Both the position numbers and the translations under genes were made by a program. Below, piece by piece: positions 847-33,810 of a stretch of 36,909 nucleotides of DNA. Positions within the stretch are counted from its first letter, which is position 1. Each line of letters starts with the position of its first letter. Origin of the DNA: Pseudomonadota bacterium (lineage in GTDB: Bacteria; Pseudomonadota; Gammaproteobacteria; Acidiferrobacterales; Acidiferrobacteraceae). The stretch is from contig JAJYQN010000091.1 in the NCBI GenBank assembly GCA_021794595.1, positions 1 to 36,909 on the forward strand, in the 5' to 3' direction. The notes under the pieces were generated by a model. That model did not search any database. It saw only the letters and a list, made by a program, of their open reading frames with translations, and was not told the DNA's origin.

Positions 847-919
847 GGTATTCCACTCCTTATCTCGCTACTTTAGGGGCGGACGTCCACTTATTCCAGT
901 GTCCAAGAATTGGGGTCCA

Positions 920-1830
920 CTTCTATCAGGTGTACCGTTCGGTCGAGTGGATCGTACGCTGGGGCCTCGAACACCGGGTCTTGGGCCCCATCAAGGCCTT
1001 CGGGGTCGACGAGATCGCTTAGTGCCGGGGGCACAAATATCTCACGCTCGCAATCACATCGAGGCCGGCATGGTGCGTCTCTTGTGGGTGGGTAAGGAGC
1101 GTACCGTGAAGACCTTCGAGGGCTTCTTCACTATGTTGGGACAAGAGACCTGCGCGGGCATTGAGTTCGTCTGCTCAGGTCTGTGGCGACCTTACATCCG
1201 GGTGATCCGCGAGCGCTGTTCCCAGGCCATGCATATCCTCGACCGTTTCCACATCGTCGCCAAGATGAACGACGCTTTGGACGAGGTACGCGCCGAGGAG
1301 GCTCGGGCGCTTACGCGCAATGGCCGTGAGCCGATTCTAAAGAAAACCCGTTGGTGTCTCTTGAGGCGCTCCGAGAACCTCACCACCCCCCAGAAGGGGC
1401 GACTCAAAGAGTTACTGCGCTATAACCTGAAAAGCGTCCGCGCCTACCTGTTGAAGGAAGACTTCCAGCAGTTCTGGACCTACCAGTCCCCCACCTGGGC
1501 CGGCAAGTTCCTGGACGCCTGGTGCACAACCGCGTTGCGTTCGCGCATCGAGCCCATGAAGAAGATCGCCCGCATGTGCCGGCGTCATCGGGAGTTGATC
1601 CTGAACTGGTTCAAGGCCAAAGGGGCCATCTCCAACGGCATCGTCGAGGGCCTGAACAACAAGGCCAAACTGACCATCAGAAAATCGTACGGATTCCGAT
1701 CCCCGGAGATCCTGGAAATGGCTTTATATCATGCACTTGGCAAGCTCCCTGAGCCGAAGCTCACCCATGAATTTTACCGACCCGCCCGGCGGACTCTTCC
1801 TTCGGGGTCGTGCGCTTATCGAAACAGGGC
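920..1830 (+). mobile_element. ISL3-family insertion sequence remnant, split by the IS3 element
   Basis: Only the 3' part of an ISL3-type element is present. Its left part is missing at the IS3 junction (919/920) and may continue on the far side of the IS3 element, outside the window. The right end is not defined: transposase similarity stops near 1777 and the neighbouring reductase gene begins at 1848. No terminal inverted repeat could be confirmed, so 1830 is an estimate. Confidence 0.6.
921..1777 (+). pseudogene. ISL3-family transposase, 5'-truncated with nonsense and frameshift
   Basis: C-terminal DDE domain of an ISL3 transposase. The first part, in the frame of 921, reads FYQVYRSVEWIVRWGLEHR then IKAFGVDEIA followed by TAG at 1020-1022, where the family normally has a Trp codon (VDEIAW.RGH). 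The reading HKYLTL continues to about 1050, after which homology moves to the frame used by the rest (HIEAGMVRLLWVGKERT), consistent with loss of one base. From there the sequence is intact through SNGIVEGLNNKAKLTIRKSY and ends at LPEPKLTHEFY, where the family usually stops; here the frame runs on to 1921. The zinc-ribbon and HTH N-terminus is absent. It is not functional as it stands. Confidence 0.8.
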
Positions 1831-1847
1831 CTTAGTTCAGGTGCGCT

Positions 1848-2924
1848 TTAGTCCAAGGCCGGGTAATCGACGTATCCCTTGGGTCCCGGGGTATAGAAGG
1901 TGCTCATGTCCGGTGCGTTGAGTGCCGCCCCCGTTTGCCAGCGGGTGACAAGGTCTGGGTTCGCCAGAAATGGGCGCCCGACAGCGATCAGGTCGCACTT
2001 GCCAGCTGCCAGGTCGGCCTCGGCGCGGGTGGCATCGTAGCCCCCGGACAGGATCAATTTGCCGTTAAAGGCGCTACGGGCCATCGCTTTAATGGATTCC
2101 GGCACCTCTGGGGCGCCCATGGCCGAGTGATCGACCAGATGAAGGTAAACGAGTCCGCGCGTATTCAGTTCGCGTATGAGATAGGTGTAATCGGCAGTCA
2201 TGTCGTCATAGAGCGGCATGTCATTGAATATCCCAAATGGCGATAGGCGTATGCCGACGCGATCTTTGCCAATGGCTTTGATCGTCGCTTCCGCGACCTC
2301 GAGCACGAAACGGGCGCGGTTCTCGATCGGCCCCCCATAGCGGTCGGTGCGTTGATTCGAGTTTGGGCGAATGAACTGCTCGAGCAAGTAGCCGTTGGCA
2401 CCGTGTAGCTCGACCCCGTCGAATCCTGCGGTCATAGCGTTTTTTGCCGCCTGCGCATACTCCTCAATAGTGGCTTTGATATCCGCTTCGGTCATCGCTT
2501 GCGGCGTAGCGTTTGCCTTCATGCCCTCGGCATCCGTGTACATATCGCCTTTCGCCGCCACGACCGATGGCCCTAATACGCGGGCGCCAGCCGGGAGATT
2601 TAGGGGGTGACTGATGCGTCCGCAATGCATGAATTGTATGAACATCCGTGCGCCCTTGCGGTGGACGGCATCGGTAACGCGCTTCCAGCCGACGATTTGC
2701 TCGGGGGAAAATATTCCCGGTATGCGAGGATAACCAAGACCGTTGGGTGATGGGGACGTGCCCTCGCTAATGATAAGACCGGCGGCGGCACGTTGGGAGT
2801 AGTACTCCACCATGAGATCATTCGGGACATTTCCGATTGCGCGATTGCGAGTCAAAGGGGCCATGACCAGGCGATTTTGTAGCGCGAGTGATCCGAGTGT
2901 CGCTTGGGAAAATAGCATGGACAT
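1848..2924 (-). CDS. Old Yellow Enzyme-family alkene/N-ethylmaleimide reductase
   Basis: FMN-dependent TIM-barrel ene-reductase, 358 residues, the usual size for the NemA/OYE family. It reduces activated C=C bonds (N-ethylmaleimide, enones, some nitro compounds) with NAD(P)H in the cytoplasm. Visible signatures are the N-terminal FMN region (LFSQATLGSLALQNRLVMAP), the substrate and FMN motif HGANGYLLEQF, and IRPNSNQRTDRYGG. The C-terminal phosphate-binding stretch is LIAVGRPFLANPDL. The start ATG at 2924 is preceded by AAGGAG with seven bases' spacing. It stands alone, with a disrupted IS downstream and an AT-rich inverted repeat upstream that could be an operator. The physiological substrate cannot be told from sequence. 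Confidence 0.92.
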   Translation of the reverse strand: MSMLFSQATLGSLALQNRLVMAPLTRNRAIGNVPNDLMVEYYSQRAAAGLIISEGTSPSPNGLGYPRIPGIFSPEQIVGWKRVTDAVHRKGARMFIQFMHCGRISHPLNLPAGARVLGPSVVAAKGDMYTDAEGMKANATPQAMTEADIKATIEEYAQAAKNAMTAGFDGVELHGANGYLLEQFIRPNSNQRTDRYGGPIENRARFVLEVAEATIKAIGKDRVGIRLSPFGIFNDMPLYDDMTADYTYLIRELNTRGLVYLHLVDHSAMGAPEVPESIKAMARSAFNGKLILSGGYDATRAEADLAAGKCDLIAVGRPFLANPDLVTRWQTGAALNAPDMSTFYTPGPKGYVDYPALD

Positions 2925-19778: not shown

Positions 19779-21005
19779 ATGATTTTTCCTGTGTTTGTCG
19801 CCTTGTACGGCCTCGCGCATGTCTATATTTGGCATGCGATCGTCTCCGGAGTACCTCTTCCGGTTTGGGCTCAAGGACTGCTGGCCTTTGGCTTATTGGC
19901 CTTAGGGCTCACGCCGTTTCTTGCCCGGCGCCTAGAGCGTCGGGGCTACGCCCAGCTTGGGCGTCTTTTCGCCTGGGTGGGATATACCTGGGCGGGGCTT
20001 GTCCTGTTGTTCGTGCTGGCTCGGTTCGGTACCGATCTTCTCATGGTCGTGGCTGCGGCGGCGGGTTGGTCCATGCCCGAGGGGCTTGTGCGCTCTTTAT
20101 CGCTCATTGCGACCGGGGTATTGACCGCGACGCTCGCGGTCTACTCCTTTATCGAAAGGTCGCGGGTGCGCGTGGAATTCATCGCTGTCCCCACGGCGAA
20201 GGTGACTGGCACGCCGGCCCTTTTGAAGGTCGCGCAGATCTCCGATGTCCATATCGGTTCCATGAACGGACGCCGCCGCATCCGGACGGTGGTTCGGCGG
20301 CTAAAGGAGATAGGCCCGGATGTCGTGGTTTCGACCGGAGACCTGATTGATTCCCGGGTCGGACTCGCCGTCCCAGTCACTGGGCTTCTGGCCGGCGTGC
20401 AACCACCGCTCGGCAAATTCGCCGTGATCGGCAATCATGAGTGCTATGCCGGCCTCGATTCGTCCTTGGCTTTCATGGAGCGTGCGGGGTTTACCGTGCT
20501 CCGTAACCAAGCCGTGTTGGTGCGTGGCATCCGACTCGTCGGTATGGATGACCCGGCCGCCGGTGAGGCGGCGCAGCTTGCGTCCCGAGAGCAGCAATTG
20601 TTGCGCGAGCTGCCGGATAAGGTCTTTACTATCCTTTTGAAGCATAGACCGGACTTAGTGCCGGGCTCCCATACACGCTTCGATCTTCAGCTCTCGGGCC
20701 ATACCCACAAGGGCCAGATGTTTCCGTTTGGCTTTTTGACGCGGCTTTATTATCCGACCCACGCCGGCCTCTTTCGGTTGGCGCAGGCCTCCTACCTTTA
20801 TGTGAGCCGCGGAACCGGGGCCTGGGGGCCGCCGTTTCGTTTGCTGGCCCCGCCCGAGATCACGGTTTTTACTATTGGTCAGGGGTGTCCCGACCCGGGT
20901 GGTCAGGTGGTTCCTCAGGGCCGAGAGGCAGGCGCGGCCAGGACTTCGCCCCCGCCCGCCTCGGTCACAGCTTATGCTGTTCTTAGGAGGCCTTCCCGGC
21001 GCTAG
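19779..21005 (+). CDS. Membrane-anchored metallophosphoesterase (YaeI/YkuE-like)
   Basis: A 408-residue protein with four hydrophobic N-terminal segments (about residues 2-22, 27-47, 60-85, 95-120) and a calcineurin-like phosphoesterase domain from about 145 to 365. Metal-binding motifs are complete: QISDVHIGS (DxH), STGDLIDS (GDxxD), VIGNHECYAG (GNHE), LLKHRPD and LSGHTHKGQ (GHTH). Relatives such as YaeI/YkuE cleave UDP- or lipid-linked phosphates at the membrane, but the substrate here is not known. The last 35 residues are Pro/Ala/Arg-rich and look non-homologous. The end overlaps the convergent histidine kinase gene by 23 bases. Confidence 0.87.
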   Translation: MIFPVFVALYGLAHVYIWHAIVSGVPLPVWAQGLLAFGLLALGLTPFLARRLERRGYAQLGRLFAWVGYTWAGLVLLFVLARFGTDLLMVVAAAAGWSMPEGLVRSLSLIATGVLTATLAVYSFIERSRVRVEFIAVPTAKVTGTPALLKVAQISDVHIGSMNGRRRIRTVVRRLKEIGPDVVVSTGDLIDSRVGLAVPVTGLLAGVQPPLGKFAVIGNHECYAGLDSSLAFMERAGFTVLRNQAVLVRGIRLVGMDDPAAGEAAQLASREQQLLRELPDKVFTILLKHRPDLVPGSHTRFDLQLSGHTHKGQMFPFGFLTRLYYPTHAGLFRLAQASYLYVSRGTGAWGPPFRLLAPPEITVFTIGQGCPDPGGQVVPQGREAGAARTSPPPASVTAYAVLRRPSRR

Positions 21006-22161
21006 TGGGGGTGTGAGTCTCCTCGGCCGTACGTCCCAGTAAATTCTGCGTAATCGGGAGGCGTATCCAGAACGTGGCCCCATTCGGGGTGTTGTTGCGA
21101 TATCCGATATCGCCGTCGTGCAGGACGATAAGTTCCTTACAGATGGCAAGGCCTAGGCCGGTGCTCTGTTCGTTGCCGGTTGGTTTGTTGCTTAGGGGTT
21201 GGTAGGGCTGGAACAGTCGGGCGGCATCGGGCGCCGAGAGCCCGGGCCCCTCGTCGCTTATCTCGCATACGATATGGTTGCCCTGTACTCGCGTCGTCAC
21301 CACGGCCCGGGTTCCGGGAGGACTGAATTTGATCGCGTTCCCGATCAGGTTATCTAGGATCTGAAGAAGGCGCAGTTCGTCTGCGAGTGTGTGGGGTATT
21401 CCCGGGGAAAACTTAAGCTCCAGGGCAATGTTTTTGCTGTGCGCGTACCCCGAATTGTGAGCCACCGCCTGGCGGACGATGGCCCCGAAATCAGTCGGCA
21501 ACTTTTGCAACTGGATGCGCCCGGCCCGGATGGCCCCCATGTCGAGGAGCTCGCCGATAATTTGCTGCATGTATTTGCCGGTGTCGATCAAAAGATCCAG
21601 GGCCGACTGGTCGTCGGCCGATAGGGGCTGGCCGGTGCCCGCCGCTGCGCGGACTTGGCCCGCCACGTCGAGCATGAGCATGATGGGTTTTTTGAGGTCG
21701 TGGCTTGCCGTGCGAAGGAAGTGATCGTTTACATCCTTTAGGTCTTTCAAGGTGATCTGGGTGCGTACACGCGCGCGCACCGTGCTCGCGTCGAAGGGCT
21801 TGACCACGTAATCGTTGGCGCCGTCGCGCAGTGCGGTGACGATGTTCGCGCTATCGGATGAGCCTGAAATGATGATAACCGGAAGGTGCAGGGGCGAATG
21901 CTGGGCGCGAATCTGACTGAGCAGCCCAAGACCGTCCACGTTCCCGGGGAGGTGCAGGTCAAGGAGGATGAGATCAAAGCTCCCATGGGCGAGTTTTTCG
22001 GTGGCTTCGACTGCGTCGAAGGCGACCTCCACGGCGTAGCCATCGCGCTTGAGTCCAATGGCCAAGCCCGCCCGTAGCCCGTCATCGTCGTCTACGACCA
22101 GCACCGTTCGCCGCCGTAGGTCGCGCTTTTCCGATACCGGACCAGCTACAGCAAAACTCAT
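20983..22161 (-). CDS. Receiver-histidine kinase hybrid (REC-HisKA-HATPase)
   Basis: A 392-residue cytoplasmic protein. An N-terminal receiver domain (about 15-140) has acidic pocket VVDDDDG, phosphoacceptor Asp in LILLDLHLPG and Lys in VVKPFD. It is followed by HisKA with the phosphoacceptor His in RTASHDLKKPIM, then HATPase_c with the N box LIGNAIKFSP, G1 box SDEGPGLS and G2 box STGLGLAICKEL. No transmembrane helix, so it is driven through its receiver by another kinase or by protein contacts; its own output partner is not adjacent. ATG 22161 lacks its own SD and overlaps the stop of a six-codon upstream peptide. Confidence 0.9.
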   Translation of the reverse strand: MSFAVAGPVSEKRDLRRRTVLVVDDDDGLRAGLAIGLKRDGYAVEVAFDAVEATEKLAHGSFDLILLDLHLPGNVDGLGLLSQIRAQHSPLHLPVIIISGSSDSANIVTALRDGANDYVVKPFDASTVRARVRTQITLKDLKDVNDHFLRTASHDLKKPIMLMLDVAGQVRAAAGTGQPLSADDQSALDLLIDTGKYMQQIIGELLDMGAIRAGRIQLQKLPTDFGAIVRQAVAHNSGYAHSKNIALELKFSPGIPHTLADELRLLQILDNLIGNAIKFSPPGTRAVVTTRVQGNHIVCEISDEGPGLSAPDAARLFQPYQPLSNKPTGNEQSTGLGLAICKELIVLHDGDIGYRNNTPNGATFWIRLPITQNLLGRTAEETHTPTSAGKAS

Positions 22162-22178
22162 AACTTATGATTTTTCAT
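22158..22178 (-). CDS. Six-codon leader peptide overlapping the histidine kinase start
   Basis: Minus-strand ATG at 22178 with AGGGGG seven bases upstream encodes MKNHKL, then TGA. That TGA overlaps the kinase ATG (TTATGAG). The kinase start has no SD of its own, so ribosomes ending on this peptide probably restart there. A weak TTGCCT-16-TATTCT promoter lies just upstream on the same strand. This is visible sequence; the coupling is inference. Confidence 0.45.
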   Translation of the reverse strand: MKNHKL

Positions 22179-22416
22179 GAGGATCCCCCTTGAATAAGAA
22201 TAGTCGATGAGTCCGGCTAGGCAAGCGGCAGGAGATATCTCGGAGAGAGGGCGAGGTTTCCCGCTCACAACGCCAGCTCGCCCTTCTAGGATGGCGTGAT
22301 CTAGAGGGTTATCGATGCCGGTGGTTGAGGGTGTCTCGTCGCGGCCGACGCGCAGGATCCAGGGCCCGGCCCCGCGCGGGATCCGACCCAAGCGCGACCC
22401 CGCGCCTCGCGGTATT

Positions 22417-22429
22417 TTTCAACCCATTG
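22417..22429 (+). promoter_or_regulatory. IHF-like site upstream of the sigma-54 promoter
   Basis: TTTCAACCCATTG fits the IHF consensus WATCAANNNNTTR with one mismatch, in an AT-rich stretch that runs on into an inverted repeat (22430-22442, TTTATT-A-AATAAA). It lies about 24 bases upstream of the -24 element, the usual place for IHF-assisted DNA bending at sigma-54 promoters. No experimental support. Confidence 0.4.
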
Positions 22430-22451
22430 TTTATTAAATAAACTTTCTATC

Positions 22452-22467
22452 GGGCACGGATATTGCT
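22452..22467 (+). promoter_or_regulatory. Sigma-54 (-24/-12) promoter upstream of the kdp locus
   Basis: GGGCACG-GATA-TTGCT against the consensus TGGCACG-N4-TTGCW: only the first base differs, and the obligatory GG (22453-22454) and GC (22465-22466) are exactly ten bases apart. It points to the right, toward kdp; transcription should start near 22478. That leaves a leader of about 540 bases before the first gene. The sigma-54-activator gene at 30659, in the same cluster, supports the call. Confidence 0.65.
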
Positions 22468-22922
22468 TCAGGGGTTGCCATGAGTATCCCCAGGTCCATT
22501 TGAGGGCGAGAGAAGACGCGGCATGGGTGTGCCTAGAGGCGATGGTCGGATGTTTGCGATGTCAGCGCGATTGAGTCAGTTGCGTAAAGGCGTGGGAAGG
22601 GCGGAGGCGGTGCCTTGTGCCGCCCGGGGCGCGCTTAGGCTTGCGTCCGGCACTAGGGCCATGGGGTTTGGAAGGCCGGCTTGGTGCAATGAAGGGGCCC
22701 ATCGTAGCGGCGATACTTTAGGACTCAACCCCGGATTCCGTGCTGGCGTTTTTTCAGGCCTTGGTGGGGGCTTATGGTTGCGCGATCCATCCCTGGGGCC
22801 CCGGTCTTTGAAGGAATGGCGGAGCAGATAAGACCTAGGACCGGCCCGGCATTCGTGGTAAGTTTTCCCGTCTGTCGGGTCGTAGGCACCGCTTTTCGGT
22901 ATGATTCGGTCTTTGGTCTTCT

Positions 22923-22949
22923 CCAAAACGGCCGATGCGGCCCTTTTGG
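22923..22949 (+). terminator. Strong terminator-like hairpin in the kdp leader
   Basis: CCAAAA (22923-22928) pairs with TTTTGG (22944-22949) and GGCCG (22930-22934) with CGGCC (22938-22942) around an ATG loop, with a single C/C mismatch between the two blocks. A short T-rich patch follows (TCCTTTGTTT). It is 69 bases before the first kdp-cluster ORF, so it could attenuate kdp transcription or end an RNA started at the sigma-54 promoter. Confidence 0.5.
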
Positions 22950-23017
22950 GTCCTTTGTTTCGGTGCTCGCCACATCGCGCTATGAACGAAACGGATACAA
23001 AAAGGGTGGGTGAATCT

Positions 23018-23128
23018 ATGGCTTGGATTATGGCGTTGGTGTTTGTTGCGGTCTACGGACTGCTCGCGGCCTTGGTGAAGTTTTCGGAGCGCGTCATGAG
23101 TACCCGCGAAGGGGGTTCGCATGATTGA
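23018..23128 (+). CDS. 36-residue membrane peptide preceding kdpF
   Basis: A small ORF starting at ATG 23018 with AAGGGTGGGTGA upstream. The product has one hydrophobic helix (MAWIMALVFVAVYGLLAALV) followed by a charged tail KFSERVMSTREGGSHD. Its stop overlaps the kdpF start by eight bases, which suggests translational coupling and a role with the Kdp complex. The frame is open farther upstream to 22901, but the upstream part is not membrane-like and ATG 23018 has the better ribosome site; MNET at 22982 is an alternative. I recognise no named family; it has the look of a small membrane subunit like KdpF. Confidence 0.6.
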   Translation: MAWIMALVFVAVYGLLAALVKFSERVMSTREGGSHD

Positions 23129-23201
23129 TGTCCTGCTGGGGCTAGTGATCGCGGTTGTTGCTTATCTCGTTTACGCCATTCTTTACCCGGAGCGGTTTTA
23201 G
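23121..23201 (+). CDS. kdpF: KdpF, small subunit of the Kdp potassium pump
   Basis: A 26-residue peptide, MIDVLLGLVIAVVAYLVYAI followed by LYPERF, one transmembrane helix and the LxYPE..F C-terminus of KdpF. KdpF stabilises the KdpABC complex. It starts inside the end of the preceding small ORF and stops three bases before kdpA. Confidence 0.85.
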   Translation: MIDVLLGLVIAVVAYLVYAILYPERF

Positions 23202-23204
23202 CCT

Positions 23205-24947
23205 ATGACAGCCAGTGCTTTTTGGCAGATTGCCATCGTATTGCTCGTGGCCGGCGGCCTGAGCGTCCCAGTTGGCCATTATTTGGCCCGCGTCTTCATG
23301 AACGAACACACCTTCTTAGACCCGGTTTTGGATCCGCTCGACCGTCTCGCGTACCGGATCATAGGTCGGGAGACGGTGAGTGCGCCCATGAACTGGAAGG
23401 GCTATGCGGTCAACATGCTCCTGACCAATGTGTTGATGGGGCTTTTGATTTACTTCATCCTGTTATGGCAAGGGGCCCTTCCTCTCAATCCGCTCCATTT
23501 CCCCGATCTCAATCCGTTTCTTGCCTTTAATACCGCCGCCAGTTTCATCACCAATACGAATTGGCAGAATTACGGGGGCGAATCGACTCTTTCACTCTTT
23601 AGCCAAATGGCCGCCATCACCTTCCCCATGTTTACCTCGGCCGCGACCGGGTTTGTCGTGGCGATCGGGTTTTTTCGCGCTCTGGCGTCTCGTAACGGCG
23701 GCCAAGACCTGGGCAATTTCTACCGCGACTTCGTGCGCGTCTTGACACGGGTATTTCTGCTTCCCTGTTTATTAATCACCCCCATTTTGGTGTGGCAAGG
23801 TTCTCCCGAAACCCTGGGCGCCATGGCCGTAGCCCATCTCGTGCAGGGCGGCACTCAGCACATCCCCATGGGGCCGGTGGCCGATCTCGAGGTCATAAAG
23901 CACCTGGGCACAAACGGCGGCGGATTCTTCAACGCGAATTCCGCCCATCCCTTCGAGAACCCGACGCCGCTTAGCAATCTCATAGAGACGCTTTTGATGA
24001 TGGTGACTCCGATGGCCTTGGTGATCGCTTTTGGGCGCATCGTCGGGAATAAGAAGCTCGCCCGAGTCATGTATTCCGTTATGGCATTGATGCTCGTGGC
24101 CGGAATTGTGATTGCGGTATCGGCCGAACAGGGGGGAACGCCCTTGCTCGCGCACGCGGGGCTTATGCAGCACGCCGGTCATGGGCAGGCGGGCGGCAAT
24201 ATGGTCGGCAAGGAGGTGCGTTTTGGTGTCACCCAAAGCGCCATTTTCGATACCGTCAGTACCGCCTTCACGACCGGAACCGTGAATTCCATGCTCGATA
24301 GCTACACTCCGATCGGGGGTATGGTTTCGCTCGTTCAGATGATGTTGAATTGCGTCTTTGGGGGCAAAGGGGTCGGCGCCCTCAACTTTTTGATGTACGG
24401 GATATTCGCCGTTTTTATTGCCGGCCTCATGGTCGGACGCACGCCCGAGTTTCTCGGCAAGAAGATTGAGAAGCGCGAGATCGTGTTGGCATCGCTTGCC
24501 TTGCTGATCCATCCCCTTATCATCCTCGTGCCCACGGCCTGGTCGCTCATCGCCCCCTATGGCGTGTCGTCCTTGGGGAACAGCGGCTCTCATGGCTTAT
24601 CCGAGGTCCTTTACGCCTTTACCTCGGCCGCGGCCAACAACGGCTCGGCGTTCGCCGGCCTGAACGGAAACACGCCCTGGTACAACGTAAGCCTAGGTCT
24701 TGTGATTGTGTTCGGTCGCTACGCGTCCATCATCTTTATGTTGGCTCTCGGAGGTTCACTGGCGGCAAAGCCCACCGTTCAAGAGACGGTGGGTACCCTC
24801 CGCACCGACAGCGCGCTCTTCGGTGGGTTTTGGCTGGCGACCATCATTGTCGTAGGCGCGCTCACCTTCTTCCCCGGGCTGGTCCTTGGCCCGATCGCCG
24901 AATTTTTTGCGCTCCATGCGCACCACATGCCTTGGGGGACGCGATGA
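23205..24947 (+). CDS. kdpA: KdpA, potassium channel subunit of the Kdp ATPase
   Basis: The K+-binding, channel-like subunit of KdpFABC, 580 residues with about ten membrane helices, in the superfamily of K+ transporters with four selectivity loops. Recognisable segments are [50 protein letters not shown] and [13 protein letters not shown], each at a pore loop. Together with KdpB it imports K+ at very low external concentration, driven by ATP. It overlaps kdpB by ATGA. Confidence 0.97.
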
Positions 24948-27013
24948 GCGACGCCGTACAGAAATCCGAACGCAAGGCCGAGGCCTACCATACCGAAGCG
25001 AGCGGCCTTGTCGGGCGCGCGCTCATGGACGCCTTCAGGAAATTCAGCCCTCGGGTCCAAGTTCGCAACCCCGTGATGTTTATCGTCTGGCTGTCCATGT
25101 TCGTCACCTTGGCGCTCACTTTTCAGCCGGCACTGTTCGGTAAGACCTCGGTGAGCGCCGCCTACAACGGTTTGGTGACGGCCATTCTCTTTTTCACCGT
25201 GTGGTTTGCCAATTTCGCCGAAGCCCTGGCCGAGGGTCGCGGCAAGGCTCAGGCCGATGCGCTGCGGCAGACAAAAACCGATGTCATGGCTAGACGGATA
25301 GGGCCGGACGGCACTTTCCAGACGGTGCCGGCGGGCGCCTTGCGCAAGGGTGACCGCGTACGCGTCGAGCGTGGCGACATTATTCCGACCGATGGCGAAA
25401 TACTGGAAGGTATCGCCTCGGTGGACGAATCGGCCATAACGGGCGAGTCGGCGCCGGTCTTGAAAGAGCCGGGCACTGATATGTTTTCCACGCTCACGGG
25501 CGGAACCCGGATCTTGTCGGACTGGCTGGTCTTTAAGGTCTCGGCCGATCCCGGCCACACCTTCCTTGATCGCATGATCCATTTGGTCGAAGGCGCCAAG
25601 CGGCAGAAGACCCCGAATGAGATCGCGCTCACCGTGCTACTGGCGGTGTTGAGTCTGATTTTCGTGATCGTAGTGGCCACGCTCAAGCCGCTGGCGGCGT
25701 TTCTGCACATCAATCTCGATGTGGCGACCTTGATTGCCCTGCTCGTTGCGCTGATGCCGACTACGATAGGTGCGCTCTTGTCGGCCATAGGGATAGCCGG
25801 GATTGATCGGGCCACTCGCTTTAATGTGCTGGCGATGTCGGGGCGGGCGGTAGAGGCCGCAGGCGACGTGCAGACTTTGATTCTCGATAAGACTGGGACG
25901 ATCACCATGGGGAACCGGCAGGCGACAGAGTTTGTCCCGCTGCCCGGCCATAGCGAGAGCGACGTCGCGGCGGCGGCCTTGTTGGCCTCGTGGTATGACA
26001 CGACCCCGGAGGGTCGTTCGATCGTGGCCTTGGCCGTGTCCAAGGGCGCCAAACACGATGCCGCCTGGGATCAGGCCCAGGGTGTCGATTTCACCGCCGA
26101 GACGCGTATGAGCGGCACGAATCTGGCCGATGGCCGCAAGGCGCGAAAAGGGGCGGTGGCCGCGGTAGCGCGCTACGTGCAAGAGGGGTTTAAGGGCGTT
26201 ATTCCGCCGCAACTCAAGGAGGCCGGGGAATTGGTCGCGCGCAAGGGTGCGACACCTTTGGCGCTTGCGGTCGACGGCGATCTCGTGGGGGTGATCGGTC
26301 TTTCCGATGTCTTAAAAGCTGGCATGCGTGAGCGCTTCGCCCACATGCGCAGCCTCGGTATCAAGACGGTGATGGTAACTGGCGACAACCCCATCACGGC
26401 GCGCGTCATAGCCGAGCAGGCAGGCGTCGACGACTTTGTCGCCGAAGCGAAGCCTGAAGACAAGATCCGGGTGATCCGCGCCGAACAAGCGCGTGGGCGC
26501 CTCGTGGCTATGACCGGAGACGGGACGAACGATGCGCCGGCCTTGGCCCAGGCCGACGTGGGACTTGCGATGCATTCGGGAACCGTACCGGCGAAGGAAG
26601 CGGCCAATATGATCGATCTCGATTCTGATCCGACCAAGCTGATCGACGTGGTCGCCATAGGTAAGCAGCTGCTCATTACTCGCGGCGCGCTTACGACCTT
26701 TTCGATAGCCAATGACGTCGCCAAGTATTTTGCCATGCTTCCGGCGATGTTTATGTTGGCCTTACCCGGAGTGGCGACCCTCAATGTCATGCATCTGGCG
26801 ACACCCGAGAGCGCGGTCCTCTCAGCGCTGATTTTTAACGCCATCATTATTCCGATTTTGATTCCGCTCGCCTTGCGTGGGGTGCGTTTCCAGCCCACGA
26901 GCGCGAACCGTATGTTGGCGCGTAACGTCCTTATTTATGGTCTCGGCGGTCTGATTGTGCCCTTTATCGGTATCAAGGCGATTGATCTCATCTTGAGCCC
27001 GTTCTTGCATTAG
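24944..27013 (+). CDS. kdpB: KdpB, P-type ATPase subunit of the Kdp pump
   Basis: P-type ATPase (class IA), 689 residues, close to the E. coli length. The phosphorylation site is [13 protein letters not shown] (Asp), the actuator domain motif is [11 protein letters not shown], the nucleotide-domain stretch is [13 protein letters not shown], and the hinge is [18 protein letters not shown]. The membrane helices are around residues 40-80, 215-290 and 585-685. The start at 24944 overlaps the KdpA stop. An ATG farther upstream would fall inside kdpA and is not used. Confidence 0.97.
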
Positions 27014-27023
27014 GAGAGGCCCC

Positions 27024-27599
27024 ATGCGGCAATATCTTGGCAGTGCGGTACGTTTTACGGTTCTCACGTGGTTGTTCTTTGGGCTCGGCTATCCCTTGCT
27101 CGAGGTGGGGATCAATCAGGCCTTGTTCCCTGGGCCTGCCAACGGCAGCCTTGTGCGTCTTCATGGTCGGGTGGTGGGGTCCCGGCTGATCGAGCAGCGG
27201 TTTACGGGCGCGACGTGGTTCCATGGCCGCCCCTCGGCGGTCCATGACGACCCGCGTTCGTCCGGGGGCTCAAACCTCGGACCGTTGAGCCCCAAACTCT
27301 TTCGTCATTTGTTGGCCCGCCGCCAGCGGCTCGAGCGCCGACATCCAAGCCTTGTCGGTAAGCGTTTACCAGCGGATATGATTACCAGCTCCGGCTCAGG
27401 GCTCGACCCCGATATCAGTCCGGCCACCGCCTATCTCCAGGCGCCCTGGGTGGCACGAGCCCGCGGAATCCCGGTGGCCATCGTGCGCCGTCTGGTGGCG
27501 CGCCATATACGAGGTCCGTGGCTTGGTCTTTTCGGTAACGCCCGCGTGAACGTGCTCATGCTCAATCTGGCCTTGCAGAACGCCGAACATGGCCGCTAG
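27024..27599 (+). CDS. kdpC: KdpC, accessory subunit of the Kdp pump
   Basis: Single-span periplasm-facing subunit of 191 residues that helps assemble KdpFABC and aids K+ affinity. TM1 is at the N-terminus (VLTWLFFGLGYPLLEVGINQ). Family landmarks are GSRLIEQRFTGATWFHGRPS, the LPADMITSSGSGLDPDISPA stretch with the conserved SGSGLDP, and the C-terminal NVLMLNLAL. AGGAGAGG lies six bases before the start, and the gene is ten bases from kdpB. Confidence 0.97.
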   Translation: MRQYLGSAVRFTVLTWLFFGLGYPLLEVGINQALFPGPANGSLVRLHGRVVGSRLIEQRFTGATWFHGRPSAVHDDPRSSGGSNLGPLSPKLFRHLLARRQRLERRHPSLVGKRLPADMITSSGSGLDPDISPATAYLQAPWVARARGIPVAIVRRLVARHIRGPWLGLFGNARVNVLMLNLALQNAEHGR

Positions 27600-27600
27600 G

Positions 27601-27639
27601 GCCCCTTATGCTACGATGAGGGGCTAGAAGCCCTATAAT
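27601..27639 (+). other. Two mutually exclusive hairpins and a TATAAT between kdpC and kdpD
   Basis: GCCCCTTAT (27601-27609) can pair with ATGAGGGGC (27616-27624) with one G-U; alternatively GGGCT (27621-27625) pairs with AGCCC (27629-27633). The two share bases. Directly after lies a perfect TATAAT (27634-27639), with no good -35. This may be a secondary promoter for the sensory genes, or an RNA-processing or attenuation element. The evidence is sequence shape only. Confidence 0.35.
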
Positions 27640-27677
27640 CAGGGATTGGGGAAGGCCTCGGACCGCATGCGGATACG

Positions 27678-28844
27678 ATGAGCGAAGTAGAGAATAGAGC
27701 GTCCACGGAAGAAGATATTCTGAGGACCCTGAAGGAGCGCGCCGCCGGGCGCCTCAAAATCTATATCGGGTCTGCGGCGGGGGTCGGCAAGACTTACCAG
27801 ATGCTGCTTGAGGCCCAGCGGCTGCGTAGCGAGGGTGTCGATGTGGTGCTGGGTTATATCGAGACCCACGGTCGGGCCGAGACTATGGCCCAAATCGGGG
27901 ATCTGGAAAGGGTAGCCTTACGCGAGGTTCGCTACCAGGATCGGGTCTTCGAAGAGATGAATTTGCCGGCCATCCTTGCCCGCCGGCCCGAAGTGGTCAT
28001 TGTCGACGAGCTCGCCCACACCAATATCCCCGGCACCGAGCATCCTAAGCGCTATCAAGACGTCGAAGATATCCTGAAGGCGGGTATCAACGTCATTTCG
28101 GCCGTGAATATCCAGCATATCGAAAGCTTAAACCCGTATGTCGAGCGCCTCACGGGCGTTAAGGTGCGTGAAACCATACCCGATCGCGTGCTGGCGATCG
28201 CAAGCGAGATCATCAATATCGATCTTTCGGTCGAGGATCACCGCGAACGACTGCGGCGTGGCAAGATTTATCCAACCGAAAAGATCGAAAGCGCGCTGCG
28301 TGGGTTCTTTACCCCGGAGAATCTCGCCGCCATGCGCGAAATGGCGTTGCGCGAGGTCGCAAGCAAGGTCGAGTACCAGACCGAAGAGCAACGGCTGTTG
28401 CGCGAGGCGGGCCCATTGCGCCGGCCGGACCGGGTGGTCGTCTGTTTGGGTCCCGACCACGATGCCAATTTGGCCCTTTTGCGGCGCGGCGCGCGGGTCG
28501 CCGGGCGCCTGAACGCCGACTGGTTTGCGGTGACCGTGGTGCGTCCCGAATTCGCCCCCAGCAAGGCCCTAAGTCCGGTGCGCAAGGAGTTCCTGAAGCT
28601 CGAACGTTTAGCGGAAGATTTGGGTGCCCAGTTCAGGGTTCTCGAGGCCCACAGCGTCTTGGATGCGCTCGTGACTTTCGTTGAGGAACACGGCATCACG
28701 ATGGCCATATTCGGTAAGAACCGCCACGTGGGCTGGCGGCTGCGTATCTTCAAGTGGCTGACGCTGGAATTCCTGAGCCACACGGACGGGGTGGATGTTC
28801 AAATTGTCGATACCGCGGAGCGGGACGCTCAGGCGCGTAATTAG
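27678..28844 (+). CDS. kdpD: Truncated KdpD: sensory KdpD and Usp domains only, no kinase
   Basis: A 388-residue protein matching only the cytoplasmic N-terminal half of KdpD. The KdpD domain (about 15-225) has the Walker A-like loop IGSAAGVGKTYQML and IVDELAHTNIPG; a universal-stress-protein domain follows (about 240-375; VVCLGPDHDANLALLRRG). The four membrane helices, HisKA and ATPase of full KdpD are missing; the ORF ends with a natural stop eight bases before the next gene. Short KdpD proteins are known in Anabaena and Deinococcus. Here it probably binds ATP or c-di-AMP-like ligands and controls the neighbouring kinase, which is inference. The SD is weak. Confidence 0.9.
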   Translation: MSEVENRASTEEDILRTLKERAAGRLKIYIGSAAGVGKTYQMLLEAQRLRSEGVDVVLGYIETHGRAETMAQIGDLERVALREVRYQDRVFEEMNLPAILARRPEVVIVDELAHTNIPGTEHPKRYQDVEDILKAGINVISAVNIQHIESLNPYVERLTGVKVRETIPDRVLAIASEIINIDLSVEDHRERLRRGKIYPTEKIESALRGFFTPENLAAMREMALREVASKVEYQTEEQRLLREAGPLRRPDRVVVCLGPDHDANLALLRRGARVAGRLNADWFAVTVVRPEFAPSKALSPVRKEFLKLERLAEDLGAQFRVLEAHSVLDALVTFVEEHGITMAIFGKNRHVGWRLRIFKWLTLEFLSHTDGVDVQIVDTAERDAQARN

Positions 28845-28852
28845 GATAAGTC

Positions 28853-30658
28853 ATGCTTCGATCACTCAGTAATCGCCTCATTATCGCTATCCTCGCCGTC
28901 GTGCTGCTCCTGGGCATCCTGGGGGCGCTCCTCATTTCTCGGATCAGTCATCTCGGCGAAGTCACGGGCGTCATTTTGCAAACCAACTCGCATGCGATGG
29001 CCGCGATCAGCAAGATGCGCGAGGCCAGCACCGCCTATAGCCTCTCCAACGATCATAAGACCAGGGCACGCTCGATAGCGGTCTTTGCCCGCGCCCTCCA
29101 GCGCTCTGAAGACGAGGCCCGGGCGCCCGATGTCCAACGACTACTTAATCGCCTGGAACGTGACTGGAAGAACGATAAGCACAAGCCCAGCGCCGCGCAT
29201 CTCGCGCGCGTGAAGACCGATTTGCGGGCCCTTAAGGTCGCGAGTCGTCGCGCCATAGCGCATCGCGAGACCCGCGCCATCCACTCCATCAAGGAACTAA
29301 CGATTTTCGCGGCCCTTGGGCTATCGGCCTCTTTGTTGATCGTCTTGATCCTCTCGGTTTGGATGGTGCGGCTCATTTTGCGTCCGATGCGGCAATTGGC
29401 GCGTGGTATCCACGAGTTGGGTCCCGGGGGTGGTCATCGCGAAATTGAGCGTTACGGCTTGTCGGAGTTCGACGATCTGACGCGCGAGTTCAATAGCCTC
29501 CTGCGGCGCCTCGAGAAGCATGAGCGCGGGAACACGGATAAGCTCGTCTATGAAAACGCGAAGATCGACGCCTTGATCAATTCCATAGACGATGGTCTGG
29601 TTCTCCTGGATCGTCAGGGGAAGATCCTGCACGTGAACTTCATGGCCGGCATGCTGCTGCAAACGGAACCGAATGAGCTGCTTGGACGCAACATTAATGA
29701 TTTAAACATTGCGACGCGGTTCTACATCAATCTGCGTAACGCCTTGGTCTCCCTGCGCCGCGAGGATCAGGACGAGCCTCAATATAGCCGCAACGAATTT
29801 TCCTTAACCATTCGCGGTCGTCTGCACTCCTACATCTTAAAGACCGTGCCGTTCCGTGATAAGGGGCGGAGCACGATAGGTCTTATCGTTGTGCTCCAGG
29901 ACGTGACCGAGCTAAGGCACGCCGAACATCAGAGAAGCCAGCTTCTGGCAACCCTCTCGCATGAGCTAAAGACCCCGTTGACGAGCTTGAGCCTCAGTAT
30001 CGGGACGCTGTACGAGACTGCCGCGCAGGAGCATTACCCGCACCAGATTCGCCAGCTGCTGGACGTCGGCAAAGAGGAGGTCGGACGGCTGACTATGCTG
30101 GTCGAGGATCTCTTGGATGTATCCCGCCCAGATGCGACCAGGACCAGTATCGACCTGAAGCGTTTTGAGCTCTGTGAATTCCTGAAGCGGCAGGCGCACT
30201 CATTCCGCCTGCAAGCCGATCTCCAGGATGTTGACCTGATCGTCACCTGCGTACCGGATCTCGTCGTGAACGCCGACCCCGTGAAGCTCGGCTGGGTCTT
30301 TAATAATCTGCTCTCGAACGCCTTGCGCCACACGCCTCCGCATGGCCAGATTACCCTCTCGGCCGCGGCGCTCGGGCCCGATGACGTGGTGGTTGACGTC
30401 GCCGATACAGGTAGGGGTATTCCCCCGCGGGAACTCCCACAGATATTCGAGTGGTTCACCCAGGGCGCCACCGATGCCCAGGGATCGGCAGGCATGGGCC
30501 TTGCGATCGTGCGCGAAATGGTGGAGGCGCACGGCGGCCATATCACGGTCGATTCGAAGGTCAATGAAGGGACGCGGTTTCGTATCACCTTGCCGCGCCA
30601 CCTGACCGATGCGAACCTGCCTTTGCAGCCCGTGGTACCGCTTCCAACGGGTAACTAA
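28853..30658 (+). CDS. Membrane histidine kinase with HAMP and PAS domains (KinB-like)
   Basis: A 601-residue sensor kinase. TM1 (about 8-30, IIAILAVVLLLGILGALLIS) and TM2 (about 150-172) bracket a helical periplasmic sensor of roughly 120 residues. HAMP (172-230), PAS (235-355; ALINSIDDGLVLLDRQGKIL), HisKA with phosphoacceptor His in LLATLSHELKTPLTSL, and HATPase_c with N box NNLLSNALRHTP, G1 DTGRGIP and G2 GSAGMGLAIV follow. This order, a helical-bundle sensor plus HAMP plus PAS, matches Pseudomonas KinB, whose partner AlgB is an NtrC-family regulator; the same pairing occurs here. It is not KdpD-like in its membrane part. It lies eight bases after the truncated kdpD and its stop touches the next start (TAAATG). 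Confidence 0.9.
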   Translation: MLRSLSNRLIIAILAVVLLLGILGALLISRISHLGEVTGVILQTNSHAMAAISKMREASTAYSLSNDHKTRARSIAVFARALQRSEDEARAPDVQRLLNRLERDWKNDKHKPSAAHLARVKTDLRALKVASRRAIAHRETRAIHSIKELTIFAALGLSASLLIVLILSVWMVRLILRPMRQLARGIHELGPGGGHREIERYGLSEFDDLTREFNSLLRRLEKHERGNTDKLVYENAKIDALINSIDDGLVLLDRQGKILHVNFMAGMLLQTEPNELLGRNINDLNIATRFYINLRNALVSLRREDQDEPQYSRNEFSLTIRGRLHSYILKTVPFRDKGRSTIGLIVVLQDVTELRHAEHQRSQLLATLSHELKTPLTSLSLSIGTLYETAAQEHYPHQIRQLLDVGKEEVGRLTMLVEDLLDVSRPDATRTSIDLKRFELCEFLKRQAHSFRLQADLQDVDLIVTCVPDLVVNADPVKLGWVFNNLLSNALRHTPPHGQITLSAAALGPDDVVVDVADTGRGIPPRELPQIFEWFTQGATDAQGSAGMGLAIVREMVEAHGGHITVDSKVNEGTRFRITLPRHLTDANLPLQPVVPLPTGN

Positions 30659-31831
30659 ATGCTGTCCGTTCTCATAGTAGACGATGATCGGAAGATTCGC
30701 CTGACCCTCGAGATATTCTTGGAAAGAAAGGGCTACCGGGTCCGCAGTGTGGCATCGGTCGGGGCGGCGTTGAGCGCCTTGAAGGAATTTCGGGCGGACA
30801 TTGTCCTCTCTGACCTCAAAATGGAGGGTCAAGGGGGTCTCGAACTGTTGGTGGCCATCAAGGCCGAGTATCCGACTCTCCCGGTCATTATCATGACCGC
30901 CTATGCGACCGTGGAAAAGGCGGTCGAGGCGATAAAGCTCGGCGCCACGGATTTTATCGTGAAGCCGTTCGTGCCCGCGGAAATCGAGCAAATTCTGGCG
31001 CGGAATATCCGTATGCAAGGGCTCGAGGCCGAGAACCGGAGTCTGCGCGAGGCCTTGGGCCAGGGCGAGATAGTGACGCGGTCCGAGAGCCTCAAAAGGA
31101 CCTTATCCATGGCGGAACGTTTTGCTCATAGCGAGGCGACCGTGCTGATTTTGGGAGAGAGCGGAACGGGTAAAAGCATGCTGGCGCGACGCATCCATGC
31201 CACTAGCGAGCGCAAGTCCGGCCCGTTCGTCGAGGTCAATTGCGCGAGCCTCTCGCCAACCCTTTTGGAAAGCGAGCTTTTCGGACACTGCAAAGGGGCC
31301 TTTACCGGGGCCATAAAGGATAAGGTCGGGCGTCTGGAGGTGGCCCATGGCGGCACCTTGTTTCTTGACGAAATCAGCGAATTGTCCGCCGAAGGGCAGG
31401 CCAAGATTTTACGGTTCCTTCAGGATAAGAGGTTCGAGCGCGTGGGTGAATTGGACACTCGGGTGGCGGATGCAAGGATTATTGCGGCAACCAACCGCGA
31501 TCTCCAGGATTTCGTAAGTAGGGAGGGGTTTCGGGAGGACCTGTATTATCGTTTGAGTGTCGCCGAGGTGACCATGCCCCCCTTGCGCTCGCGTCCGGAG
31601 GACGTGCCGTTTTTGACCGAGCGGTTCCTGGCGCAGGCGGCGGCCCGCAACGGCCTTTCGTCGATTCCCGTCATCGGAGATGAGGCTAAAGCCTATTTGG
31701 CCCGCTACAATTGGCCCGGCAATGTTCGAGAGCTTCAGAACGTTATCGAACGTTGTGTCATATTAGCGGGCCGCGGGTGCGTGATGGCTGAACACTTACC
31801 CGATCGTCTTTTGACGTACTCCGCGTCCTAG
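30659..31831 (+). CDS. NtrC-family sigma-54 activator lacking a DNA-binding domain
   Basis: A 390-residue response regulator. The receiver (about 1-120) has LIVDDDRKIR, phosphoacceptor Asp in IVLSDLKM and Lys in FIVKPF. The AAA+ domain (about 140-370) has Walker A GESGTGKS, the sigma-54 contact loop GAFTGA, Walker B GTLFLDE and the arginine-finger region FREDLYYRLSV. The protein ends at ERCVILAGRGCVMAEHLPDR then LLTYSAS and stops; the C-terminal Fis-type HTH present in NtrC and AlgB is absent, and the 49 bases to the next gene leave no room for it. FlgR of Helicobacter pylori is a known activator of this kind. This replaces KdpE, which is OmpR-type. It starts directly at the kinase stop. Confidence 0.92.
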   Translation: MLSVLIVDDDRKIRLTLEIFLERKGYRVRSVASVGAALSALKEFRADIVLSDLKMEGQGGLELLVAIKAEYPTLPVIIMTAYATVEKAVEAIKLGATDFIVKPFVPAEIEQILARNIRMQGLEAENRSLREALGQGEIVTRSESLKRTLSMAERFAHSEATVLILGESGTGKSMLARRIHATSERKSGPFVEVNCASLSPTLLESELFGHCKGAFTGAIKDKVGRLEVAHGGTLFLDEISELSAEGQAKILRFLQDKRFERVGELDTRVADARIIAATNRDLQDFVSREGFREDLYYRLSVAEVTMPPLRSRPEDVPFLTERFLAQAAARNGLSSIPVIGDEAKAYLARYNWPGNVRELQNVIERCVILAGRGCVMAEHLPDRLLTYSAS

Positions 31832-31880
31832 TTTCGCCACTAGCCTAGATGAGGGGCAATTCTCCTCAAGGACCCCGGTT

Positions 31881-32717
31881 TTGAAAAAACTATTGCTCGT
31901 GGTGCTTACGGCGAGCGCCATAGGGAACTCGGCTTGCGCGCGCAACCGAGAAATCGTCCATGTTGATAGTGGTGTTTCGATTGCCTATCAGCTCCTCAAT
32001 TTCAATTACGTCGAGCCGAGCGACACCTGTGCCCTGGGTGTTTGTAGCAACGCGACATCCTCCGGGTATTTCGATCGCGAGTCCGGCAACATTAACGGCG
32101 CGCGCCTGAGTGCGTCGCAATTGGATCTCGGGGGCCATCTCTACGGCCGTATCGCCTATGGCCGGGCGCAAGGCTATGTGCAATACCAGGGCTACAGCCA
32201 GGCCGGAACGCCCATCTCCAACGGGGTGTCGGCGGCTAATATGGCGGATTACTCGCTCCGCCTTGGTTCGGCCTTTTCGAGCGGGAGGGTGATGGCAATC
32301 CCGTTTGTGCAGTACGGCCGCCACTTCTGGAACAGGGTGGTGGGGGTTGGTACGTCCACGTCCTACGAGGAGGACTATCAGAACCAGTACATTGGTTTCG
32401 GGGCGCTTTTTCAGGTGGCCATGACCCGGATCTTGGTCGGGAGTCTTTATGCCATGGCCGGCCAGACTCTGAATCCCTCTATCCGGGTCCCGAGCTTGGG
32501 TTTTGCGCAGCCGCTCGGGACGGCGCCGCTCGTGAAGGCCGGGGTCCTTCTCAATCTGCGGCTTTCCCGCATCTTCGGCCTTTACGCCGGGGTTCGCTAT
32601 ACGCGCTTCTCCTACGGCCAAAGCCCACCACAGCAGTCGGGCCCCTACACGGTCATGGAACCTGCGAGCAATACGGTGATGACAAGCTATGAGGGCGGCC
32701 TGCGGCTTTTCTTTTAG
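31881..32717 (+). CDS. Outer-membrane barrel protein downstream of the two-component genes
   Basis: A 278-residue protein starting at TTG (31881), chosen because AAGGA lies eight bases upstream and because the product then begins with a signal peptide MKKLLLVVLTASAIGNSACA. The mature part has the alternating aromatic/glycine pattern of a beta-barrel (YGRIAYGRAQGYVQYQGYS, LRLSRIFGLYAGVRYTRFSY) and ends EGGLRLFF with terminal Phe. Function unknown. It is 49 bases after the regulator gene in the same direction, so it may be in the same operon and perhaps a porin whose level follows the signal. A hairpin TGAGG/CCTCA (31850-31868) lies just upstream and overlaps the ribosome site. Confidence 0.7.
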   Translation: MKKLLLVVLTASAIGNSACARNREIVHVDSGVSIAYQLLNFNYVEPSDTCALGVCSNATSSGYFDRESGNINGARLSASQLDLGGHLYGRIAYGRAQGYVQYQGYSQAGTPISNGVSAANMADYSLRLGSAFSSGRVMAIPFVQYGRHFWNRVVGVGTSTSYEEDYQNQYIGFGALFQVAMTRILVGSLYAMAGQTLNPSIRVPSLGFAQPLGTAPLVKAGVLLNLRLSRIFGLYAGVRYTRFSYGQSPPQQSGPYTVMEPASNTVMTSYEGGLRLFF

Positions 32718-32791
32718 CGGCGGCCGGGGTCCCCTGTGGGTTCGCGGGTGGTGGTACTCGAGAGGCGCAAGGGTGTTATCCTGACACACCT

Positions 32792-33418
32792 ATGAAGCTT
32801 TTTGATGTGTTCCTCACGTTCCTGGTCGTTGTCGACCCAATCGGGCTTGTTCCGATGTTCGGGGCCATAACGGCCGGGGCCAGCGATGAGTATCGGCGGC
32901 GCATGGCGGTCAAGGGGGTGTTTATCGCCGCCCTGGTCCTGCTCTTTTTCGCGGTCATGGGCTTTGCCGTGCTGCGTATACTCGGGATAGGCCTGGGGGC
33001 CTTTCGCATCGCGGGCGGTATTTTGCTGCTCTTGCTCGCGATCGACATGGTGTTTGCGCGGCACTCGGGCCTGCGGTCGACGACCAAGCGCGAGGCTGAG
33101 GAGGCCCGCAGCCGCGATGATATCTCGGTATTCCCGCTCGCGATCCCGCTGATTGCCGGTCCTGGGGCCATGACCACGCTTTTATTGATGTTATCGGCCG
33201 CCCACGGCCGTCCTGCCGCGGTCGGAGAGGTTCTTGGTACACTGGCGGCGGTCTTGGTGATTGCGCTTGGGGTGTTGCTATTGTCGGTCCGAATCCTGGC
33301 CTTTATGGGGGAGACCGGTGCCAACGTGGTCACGCGCCTGCTGGGCGTCCTATTGACGGCTTTGGCTGTGCAGTTCATTTTGACGGGCATACAGATCGGC
33401 CTGTTGCACGGCTCCTGA
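32792..33418 (+). CDS. MarC family integral membrane protein
   Basis: UPF0056/MarC-like protein, 208 residues, with six predicted membrane helices. Family features: FLVVVDPIGLVPMFGAITAG at the N-terminus with the conserved DPIG, and FPLAIPLIAGPGAMTTLLLM in the middle, where the IPLLAGPGA motif is typical. The substrate is unknown; the old link to multiple antibiotic resistance does not hold for MarC itself. The gene follows the outer-membrane protein after 74 bases and precedes the small membrane protein at 33433. Confidence 0.9.
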   Translation: MKLFDVFLTFLVVVDPIGLVPMFGAITAGASDEYRRRMAVKGVFIAALVLLFFAVMGFAVLRILGIGLGAFRIAGGILLLLLAIDMVFARHSGLRSTTKREAEEARSRDDISVFPLAIPLIAGPGAMTTLLLMLSAAHGRPAAVGEVLGTLAAVLVIALGVLLLSVRILAFMGETGANVVTRLLGVLLTALAVQFILTGIQIGLLHGS

Positions 33419-33432
33419 AGGGGAGATGGGTC

Positions 33433-33810
33433 ATGAGCCAAGTCCGGGAATTCGATGGAAATCGGGAACGAGAACTGGTCGTCGTGGCCTACGCCTTGTA
33501 TGCCGTGGGTCTTTTTGGCCTCCTGTTGCCGAGCGTGTTGGCGCTCATTCTCAATTATCAGCGCCGGGATCGCAGTGGACCCTGCTATGGGAGCCACCAC
33601 CGTTGGATGATACGGACGTTCTGGTGGGGTATTTTTTGGGGAGCCCTCGGTCTCGTCTTGTTTTTCGTGCTGGTCGGGTACGCGGTACTCGTAGTCTTGA
33701 GCATATGGTGGGTCTATCGAGTGATTCGTGGCGCGCTCGCATTGGCCGACGAGGAGCCCATGCCGCCTTCGCCGCTCCAGATCACCAATATCACCAACAT
33801 CGGCCTGTAG
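33433..33810 (+). CDS. Small membrane protein, DUF4870-like
   Basis: A 125-residue protein with three hydrophobic stretches (about residues 16-40, 62-88, 90-105) and hydrophilic loops. The pattern YALYAVGLFGLLLPSVLALI, then HHRWMIRTFWWGIFWG and VLSIWWVYRVIRG, resembles the DUF4870/TIGR-type small inner-membrane family, though I cannot place it exactly. GGGGAG precedes the start by about eight bases. It ends about 90 bases before the bidirectional terminator, with which it probably finishes the transcript begun upstream. Confidence 0.65.
   Translation: MSQVREFDGNRERELVVVAYALYAVGLFGLLLPSVLALILNYQRRDRSGPCYGSHHRWMIRTFWWGIFWGALGLVLFFVLVGYAVLVVLSIWWVYRVIRGALALADEEPMPPSPLQITNITNIGL

Follow-up and report, generated by a model that had tools for sequence, protein, structure and literature searches.

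The closest described counterpart of the locus studied here is the kdp operon of Desulfovibrio vulgaris, which is reported to contain genes for a KdpD-N protein, a separate kinase and an NtrC-type regulator (DVU3334-3336), with DVU3334 described as a sigma-54 regulator of kdp (PMC3333781, PMC4641369). Sigma-54 activators that consist of a receiver and an AAA+ domain without a DNA-binding domain have been placed in group 5 of the bEBPs, as illustrated by FlgR and CtcC (PMC7175178), and the type lacking the DNA-binding and/or signal domain was put at about 4% of sigma-54 activators (PMC3162934); few HTH-less activators are named in these reviews (PMC7175178, PMC3162934). In Salmonella, the bare AAA+ domain of DctD is described as activating many sigma-54 promoters without enhancer binding, and at glnK activated NtrC gave nearly tenfold more than this bare domain (PMC3844500). 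No report of an HTH-less kdp regulator was found in the literature searched, which covers few subscription journals.

In this study, we analyzed a kdp locus in the window, by which we mean the whole stretch of 36,909 nucleotides from a member of the Acidiferrobacteraceae. Its features are listed in Table 1. The stop codon of the kinase gene abuts the ATG of the regulator gene. For kdpB, the ATG that overlaps the end of kdpA was taken as the probable start, whereas the mechanical open reading frame begins at 24830. The KdpD-N protein scored 377 bits against the NCBIfam model KdpD_non_kinase, under the cut-off of 550, and no kinase domain was found in it with Pfam; used as a query, KdpD-N had a single match in the window's genome, in a 401-residue open frame. 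A search of 22100-33500 against Rfam gave no match up to E = 1. Several neighboring genes were also noted. A 278-residue protein (31881-32717) that follows the regulator, and that looks like an exported beta-barrel by eye, had no match in Pfam or NCBIfam and was present in some relatives and absent from others. Before kdp lies a divergent gene (20983-22161, minus strand) whose product begins with a receiver and continues with HisKA and HATPase domains (Pfam); homologues were located upstream of kdp in 11 of the 16 loci (window included), 10 of them divergent. Two transposase-like frames, recognized by eye, occupy the start of the window (1-1921).

Table 1. Coordinates of the kdp-associated features in the window
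Feature	Position	Strand	Basis
IHF-like element AAACAATGGGTTG	22420-22432	-	Agrees with 8 of 9 letters of the IHF consensus; lies 20-32 bases upstream of the -24 box
Predicted sigma-54 promoter GGGCACGGATATTGCT	22452-22467	+	Equivalent box present in 12 of the 15 loci that could be scanned, window included
Leader in which a first kdp operon, since lost (kdp1), seems to have left a remnant	22468-22560	+	Likeness to kdp1 leaders of relatives, by eye
Small ORF of 36 aa that overlaps kdpF and looks hydrophobic by eye	23018-23128	+	Start recognized in 15 of 16 loci
Small ORF resembling kdpF, 26 aa	23121-23201	+	Conserved alignment block; named by eye
kdpA	23205-24947	+	ORF; named by eye; homologues in family loci
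kdpB	24944-27013	+	ORF; sequence and position used for naming by eye; family loci have homologues
kdpC	27024-27599	+	Pfam/NCBIfam
KdpD-N, stand-alone KdpD sensor domain without kinase	27678-28844	+	Pfam KdpD at residues 23-231
Sensor histidine kinase with HAMP, PAS, HisKA and HATPase domains, which is likely to pair with the regulator	28853-30658	+	Pfam; order conserved in family loci
Response regulator of NtrC type with receiver, sigma-54 AAA+ domain and lid but no HTH	30659-31831	+	Pfam/NCBIfam; end common to 15 of 15 intact family members

The regulator frame comprises 390 amino acids and has the C-terminal end ...HLPDRLLTYSAS. Pfam assigned residues 4-113 to Response_reg, 138-304 to Sigma54_activat and 310-386 to AAA_lid_14, and revealed no HTH at E <= 0.001; none was found at E <= 0.01 in L042, the family member of a third genus. 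The receiver contains DDD (residues 8-10), SDLKM (51-55) and VKPF (101-104). Walker A (GESGTGKS, 166-173), GAFTGA (213-218) and Walker B (TLFLDE, 233-238) are all intact in the AAA+ domain, as is the WPGNVREL stretch at 352-359. Only 49 bases separate the regulator stop from the next start (31881), and no continuation into an HTH was seen by eye in the three frames of the 150 bases behind the stop; a domain hidden in another frame was rejected on this basis. The original prediction of a frame with receiver, Walker A, GAFTGA and Walker B that ends after the AAA+ domain, with no Fis-type HTH encodable behind its stop, was thus borne out. With a receiver carrying the phospho-acceptor site, a sigma-54 AAA+ domain carrying both Walker motifs and GAFTGA, and no DNA-binding domain, the protein matches the architecture of bEBP group 5 (receiver and AAA+, no D domain). 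The solved structures nearest to it by sequence were NtrC1-type proteins.

KdpD-N was sought in 60 genomes including the window's own, 22 of which had a match. Within the same family, 17 of the 18 genomes (own included) contained a match at no less than 79% identity, and none was found in the remaining one (G007, 85% complete). Comparison of the kdp surroundings of the 16 other family genomes with the window showed that the regulator gene directly follows the kinase gene in every locus reaching that far, and that it is linked to kdp and the kinase in 15 of 15 loci. All 15 intact orthologues, which come from three genera and include the window's own, are 388-392 amino acids long, with C-termini that differ in position by only a few residues. 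Thus, the absence of the HTH is real and conserved across the family; both a sequencing error hiding a longer C-terminus and a stop codon confined to one strain with HTH-bearing orthologues elsewhere, either of which would have undermined the prediction, were ruled out by this common end. Two of the 17 KdpD-N-bearing family genomes lack an intact regulator: the sequence of L027 stops inside the kinase gene, and in L032 (10106-11333; genome 77% complete) the regulator gene is broken mid-gene into two frames. GAFTGA is present in 14 of the 15 family members; in one species (L029, 10063-11235) it is replaced by EAFTGA, and the genome of this species (L128) retains a good sigma-54 box. Judging from dN/dS values of 0.04-0.10 (nine pairs), the regulator is kept under purifying selection.

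Outside the family, a KdpD-N scan of the genome contig collection yielded 79 loci from the best 80 matches, seven of which were family members already counted. Among the other 72 kdp loci, 33 matched the regulator over at least 200 aligned residues; after removal of L070 and L084, which were other kinds of activator, a receiver/AAA+ NtrC-type protein was present near kdp in 31 of these 72 loci drawn from the best 80 matches. The remaining 39 had no regulator match, several of them being on short contigs. Thus, the claim that an NtrC-type regulator at kdp is unusual did not hold, given these 31 loci and the Desulfovibrio precedent (DVU3334-3336), whereas the absent HTH, the other part of the original observation, was confirmed. 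All 31 regulators extend 47-56 residues past the end of the window protein, which is the size of an HTH, and 30 of them are full length (L080 is cut at a contig end). HTH_8 was detected by Pfam in each of the nine that were tested (L102 just at the cut-off). In a class-wide search with NF038185, matches at E <= 1e-60 came from 43 of 369 genomes, and not one exceeded the curated cut-off.

In a midpoint-rooted maximum-likelihood tree of 49 proteins, the 15 family regulators formed one clade (100/100). Its sister group consisted of 15 regulators from kdp loci that carry an HTH and bear the labels Thermodesulfobacteriota, Myxococcota, Chlorobiota, Pseudomonadota and Aminicenantes; the joint clade had support of 99/96. 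Since the family regulators are sister to these 15 HTH-bearing proteins, a single loss of the HTH in the common ancestor of the sampled family members is probable, and it is the simplest reading of the tree. The remaining 15 regulators from kdp loci, with the labels Bacteroidota and Ignavibacteriota, were placed elsewhere, and therefore the kdp-linked NtrC-type regulators do not form one clade. The four paralogues in the window's own genome branched outside the family and sister clade. In this genome (92% complete), rpoN was matched once and PF00158 seven times, with five of the PF00158 matches strong and two weak. Four of the five strong activators carry HTH_8, one strong activator being NtrC above the curated cut-off, and only the kdp regulator is without it.

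We then searched the family loci for a -24/-12 box in the DNA that precedes their first kdpA (L027 was too short and L039 was left out), using scoring weights of our own with a maximum of 19.9. A near-consensus box precedes kdp in 12 of the 15 scannable loci, the window included. Ten boxes score at least 18, compared with 0.23 expected from resampled sequences of all 16 regions, and two further ones (L132 and L138) score 17.9; that of L138 was chosen among four sites at 16.2 or more by its likeness to the other loci in context. In eight loci the box is located on the plus strand 229-275 bases before the first kdpA, and in four loci without kdp1 (L136, L137, L138 and the window) it lies 530-923 bases before kdpA. 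No box was found in L134, L135 or L140, and no site in their locus sequences reaches 17.8. The regulator is intact in the genomes from which L134 and L135 come (L031 and L033) and split in that of L140 (L032). A sigma-54 box directly before kdpA was first considered and recognized only in L042 and L040; most boxes are farther upstream, before kdp1 or its former place. Here kdp1 is a second kdpABC set, found just before the described kdp operon in seven relatives (L127-L133), and the window looks as if kdp1 had been deleted and its promoter kept. A block before the second kdp operon, TTCGTGGTA..TTTT (22850-22880), is conserved across the genus; it had no Rfam match, and it was rejected as a sigma-54 promoter, with GG and GC just 8 bases apart in most species and the GC lost in others.

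One-mismatch sigma-54 sites were not enriched genome-wide (62 versus 98 for the reversed pattern), and therefore the case for sigma-54 control rests on the conserved position of the box. A 500-base scan of the non-family kdp loci likewise showed no enrichment, with p <= 0.05 in two of 26 entries with a regulator and in five of 19 without. In the sister clade (15 loci; 27 regions upstream of kdpA or the regulator; 14,156 bases), no site scored 18 or more, against 0.07 expected. Because the HTH-bearing sisters have no strong box, the scan did not confirm that sigma-54 controls kdp across the wider clade; on the other hand, this absence fits the idea that strong boxes in the family might compensate for the lost tether.

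Upstream of the box, the best or tied-best match to the IHF consensus within 100 bases was a minus-strand element at -31 or -32 in all 12 box loci; in L138, L139 and the window a site on the plus strand scored equally well. The mean score of the minus-strand element was 7.4 standard deviations above that of other positions, a figure inflated by shared ancestry, and the element was individually significant (p <= 0.05) in five of the 12 loci. The window's genome has three HU/IHF-family matches. Beyond -60, anchored pairwise identity was at shuffle level both in the genus group (L128, L129, L130 and L132) and in all 12 loci together, and L131, L133 and L138 were more alike than chance at -400 to -160. 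A Gibbs search of -300 to -60 in nine of the 12 box loci reached 13.7 bits (shuffle mean 12.5, maximum 13.0; eight shuffles with four starts each versus six starts for the real set), compared with 17.3 versus 11.5 in a positive control that included the promoter. The best motif was common to L131, L133, L138 and the window, where it lies at 22194-22207, about 35 bases before the divergent gene; it may be the promoter of that gene or an enhancer. Taken together, the identity and Gibbs analyses of the box loci revealed no clear enhancer upstream of the kdp box, although one may exist. The original interpretation of an enhancer-free sigma-54 switch is thus supported in part, by the lasting absence of the HTH and by a predicted sigma-54 promoter heading the kdp operon.

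Given the domain content of the regulator, the conserved absence of the HTH, the kinship with HTH-bearing kdp regulators, the purifying selection and the conserved box, we think it probable that the regulator is a phosphorylation-controlled sigma-54 activator that acts on its own kdp operon from solution, its HTH having been lost and the promoter replacing the tether. For such a mechanism we infer the signal, the phosphorylation, the activity, the operon as a single transcript, the enhancer-free action and the role of IHF. KdpD-N would inform the kinase of potassium shortage, and the kinase would phosphorylate the receiver of the regulator. The AAA+ domain would then form a ring and contact the RNA polymerase-sigma-54 complex from solution through GAFTGA, opening the promoter at 22452-22467 and thereby driving kdp and the regulator itself. 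The near-consensus box, perhaps with adjacent bound IHF, would substitute for enhancer tethering. What counts against this proposal is the lack of a box in L134, L135 and L140, the EAFTGA in L029, the missing genome-wide enrichment of sites, the upstream motif slightly above its shuffles, which may be an enhancer, and the lack of strong boxes in the HTH-bearing sisters. A further and more tentative suggestion, which we regard as possible though somewhat short of even, is that a kinase-controlled activator works from solution beside four HTH-bearing activators with a single sigma-54, and that its specificity resides in the promoter (box and IHF-like site) and not in an enhancer.

Several other explanations were weighed. 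An artefact or a decayed gene, arising from a sequencing error or a recent stop codon, is extremely improbable in view of the end shared by all 15 intact members and the low dN/dS of the regulator. It also seems unlikely, though worth considering with four HTH_8-bearing activators in the same genome, that the HTH-less regulator assembles into a mixed ring with one of them, which would supply the DNA contact, in the way that FleT is described to join with FleQ (PMC11999139). The weak motif at -145 to -258 in L131, L133, L138 and the window could be the enhancer for such a ring; however, identity beyond -60 is at shuffle level in the genus group, and the genome's own paralogues fall outside the clade of the regulator. 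Moreover, FleT is described as lacking a signal domain and as inactive alone (PMC7175178, PMC3162934), whereas the regulator has an intact receiver and an adjoining kinase.

Alternatively, another DNA-bound protein, such as IHF or whatever binds 22420-22432, might bring the regulator to the promoter, a quite unlikely arrangement in our view, although the element keeps a fixed register in 12 of 12 box loci and the genome has HU/IHF-family matches. IHF normally bends DNA instead of binding activators, the element may only aid polymerase binding, and its significance by itself in only five of 12 loci, together with the inflation of the register statistic by close relatives, further weakens this reading. 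We give little credence to the view that the regulator serves other targets or another output while kdp is controlled differently. Three of the 15 scannable loci have no box, two of them with an intact regulator, which would favor it; yet the linkage to kdp and the kinase in all 15 loci, the purifying selection and the box that stands before kdp in 12 of the 15 argue against it, and the third boxless locus, L140, comes from the genome with the split regulator, which fits a joint loss if there is no assembly error.

NtrC-type kdp regulators and bEBP group 5 were both known, and what appears to be new, as far as the literature searched goes, is a kdp regulator of the HTH-less form. This form is kept in 15 of 15 intact loci from three genera, and in the window's genome it occurs beside four HTH-bearing activators. 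An untethered activator in such company raises the issue of cross-talk, which would be either tolerated or prevented by promoter design. If the proposal is true, potassium shortage might spill over to other sigma-54 promoters, for which a pilin-like gene in L154, picked out by eye, is a candidate, or there might be insulation of an undescribed kind. As the HTH-bearing sisters are known and the promoters can be compared across species, both the replacement of the enhancer and the avoidance of cross-talk are directly testable.

Compared with KdpD/KdpE of Escherichia coli, the window shares a potassium-responsive type of kdpFABC control, but its KdpD-N has no kinase part, the single genome match of the KdpD-N query is not a full-length KdpD kinase, and none of the seven region proteins scanned with Pfam is an OmpR-type regulator. 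FlgR is devoted to flagellar control. By description, Helicobacter FlgR and Chlamydia CtcC resemble the window regulator in having a receiver and an AAA+ domain and no DNA-binding domain, whereas CtcC is described as controlling development and the window regulator is linked to kdp (PMC7175178, PMC3162934, PMC7482065). FlgR is also described as the sole activator of this class in Campylobacter and other Epsilonproteobacteria (PMC3162934), in contrast with the four additional strong activators, all with an HTH, in the window's cell. FleT of Rhodobacter/Cereibacter is likewise an AAA+ activator that has no HTH and shares its cell with further activators, but it is reported to lack a signal domain as well and to activate in complex with FleQ and not alone (PMC11999139, PMC7175178). 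The kdp locus of Deinococcus radiodurans has a truncated KdpD-N with a separate kinase and regulator; that regulator, however, is described as KdpE-like (23.9% identity to E. coli KdpE) and encoded in an oppositely oriented operon (PMC5716572). The closest likeness is with DVU3334-DVU3336, where kdp is accompanied by an NtrC-type regulator of the sigma-54 class and by a sensor split into a K+ sensor/UspA protein and a kinase of its own (PMC3333781, PMC4641369); the window has the same linkage of kdp with KdpD-N and a separate kinase and, by sequence prediction in 12 of 15 scannable family loci, a sigma-54 promoter at kdp. The difference is that DVU3334, which we liken by its description, has a published binding motif upstream of kdp that is conserved in two other species and from which a Fis-type HTH may be presumed, whereas the window regulator has no HTH.
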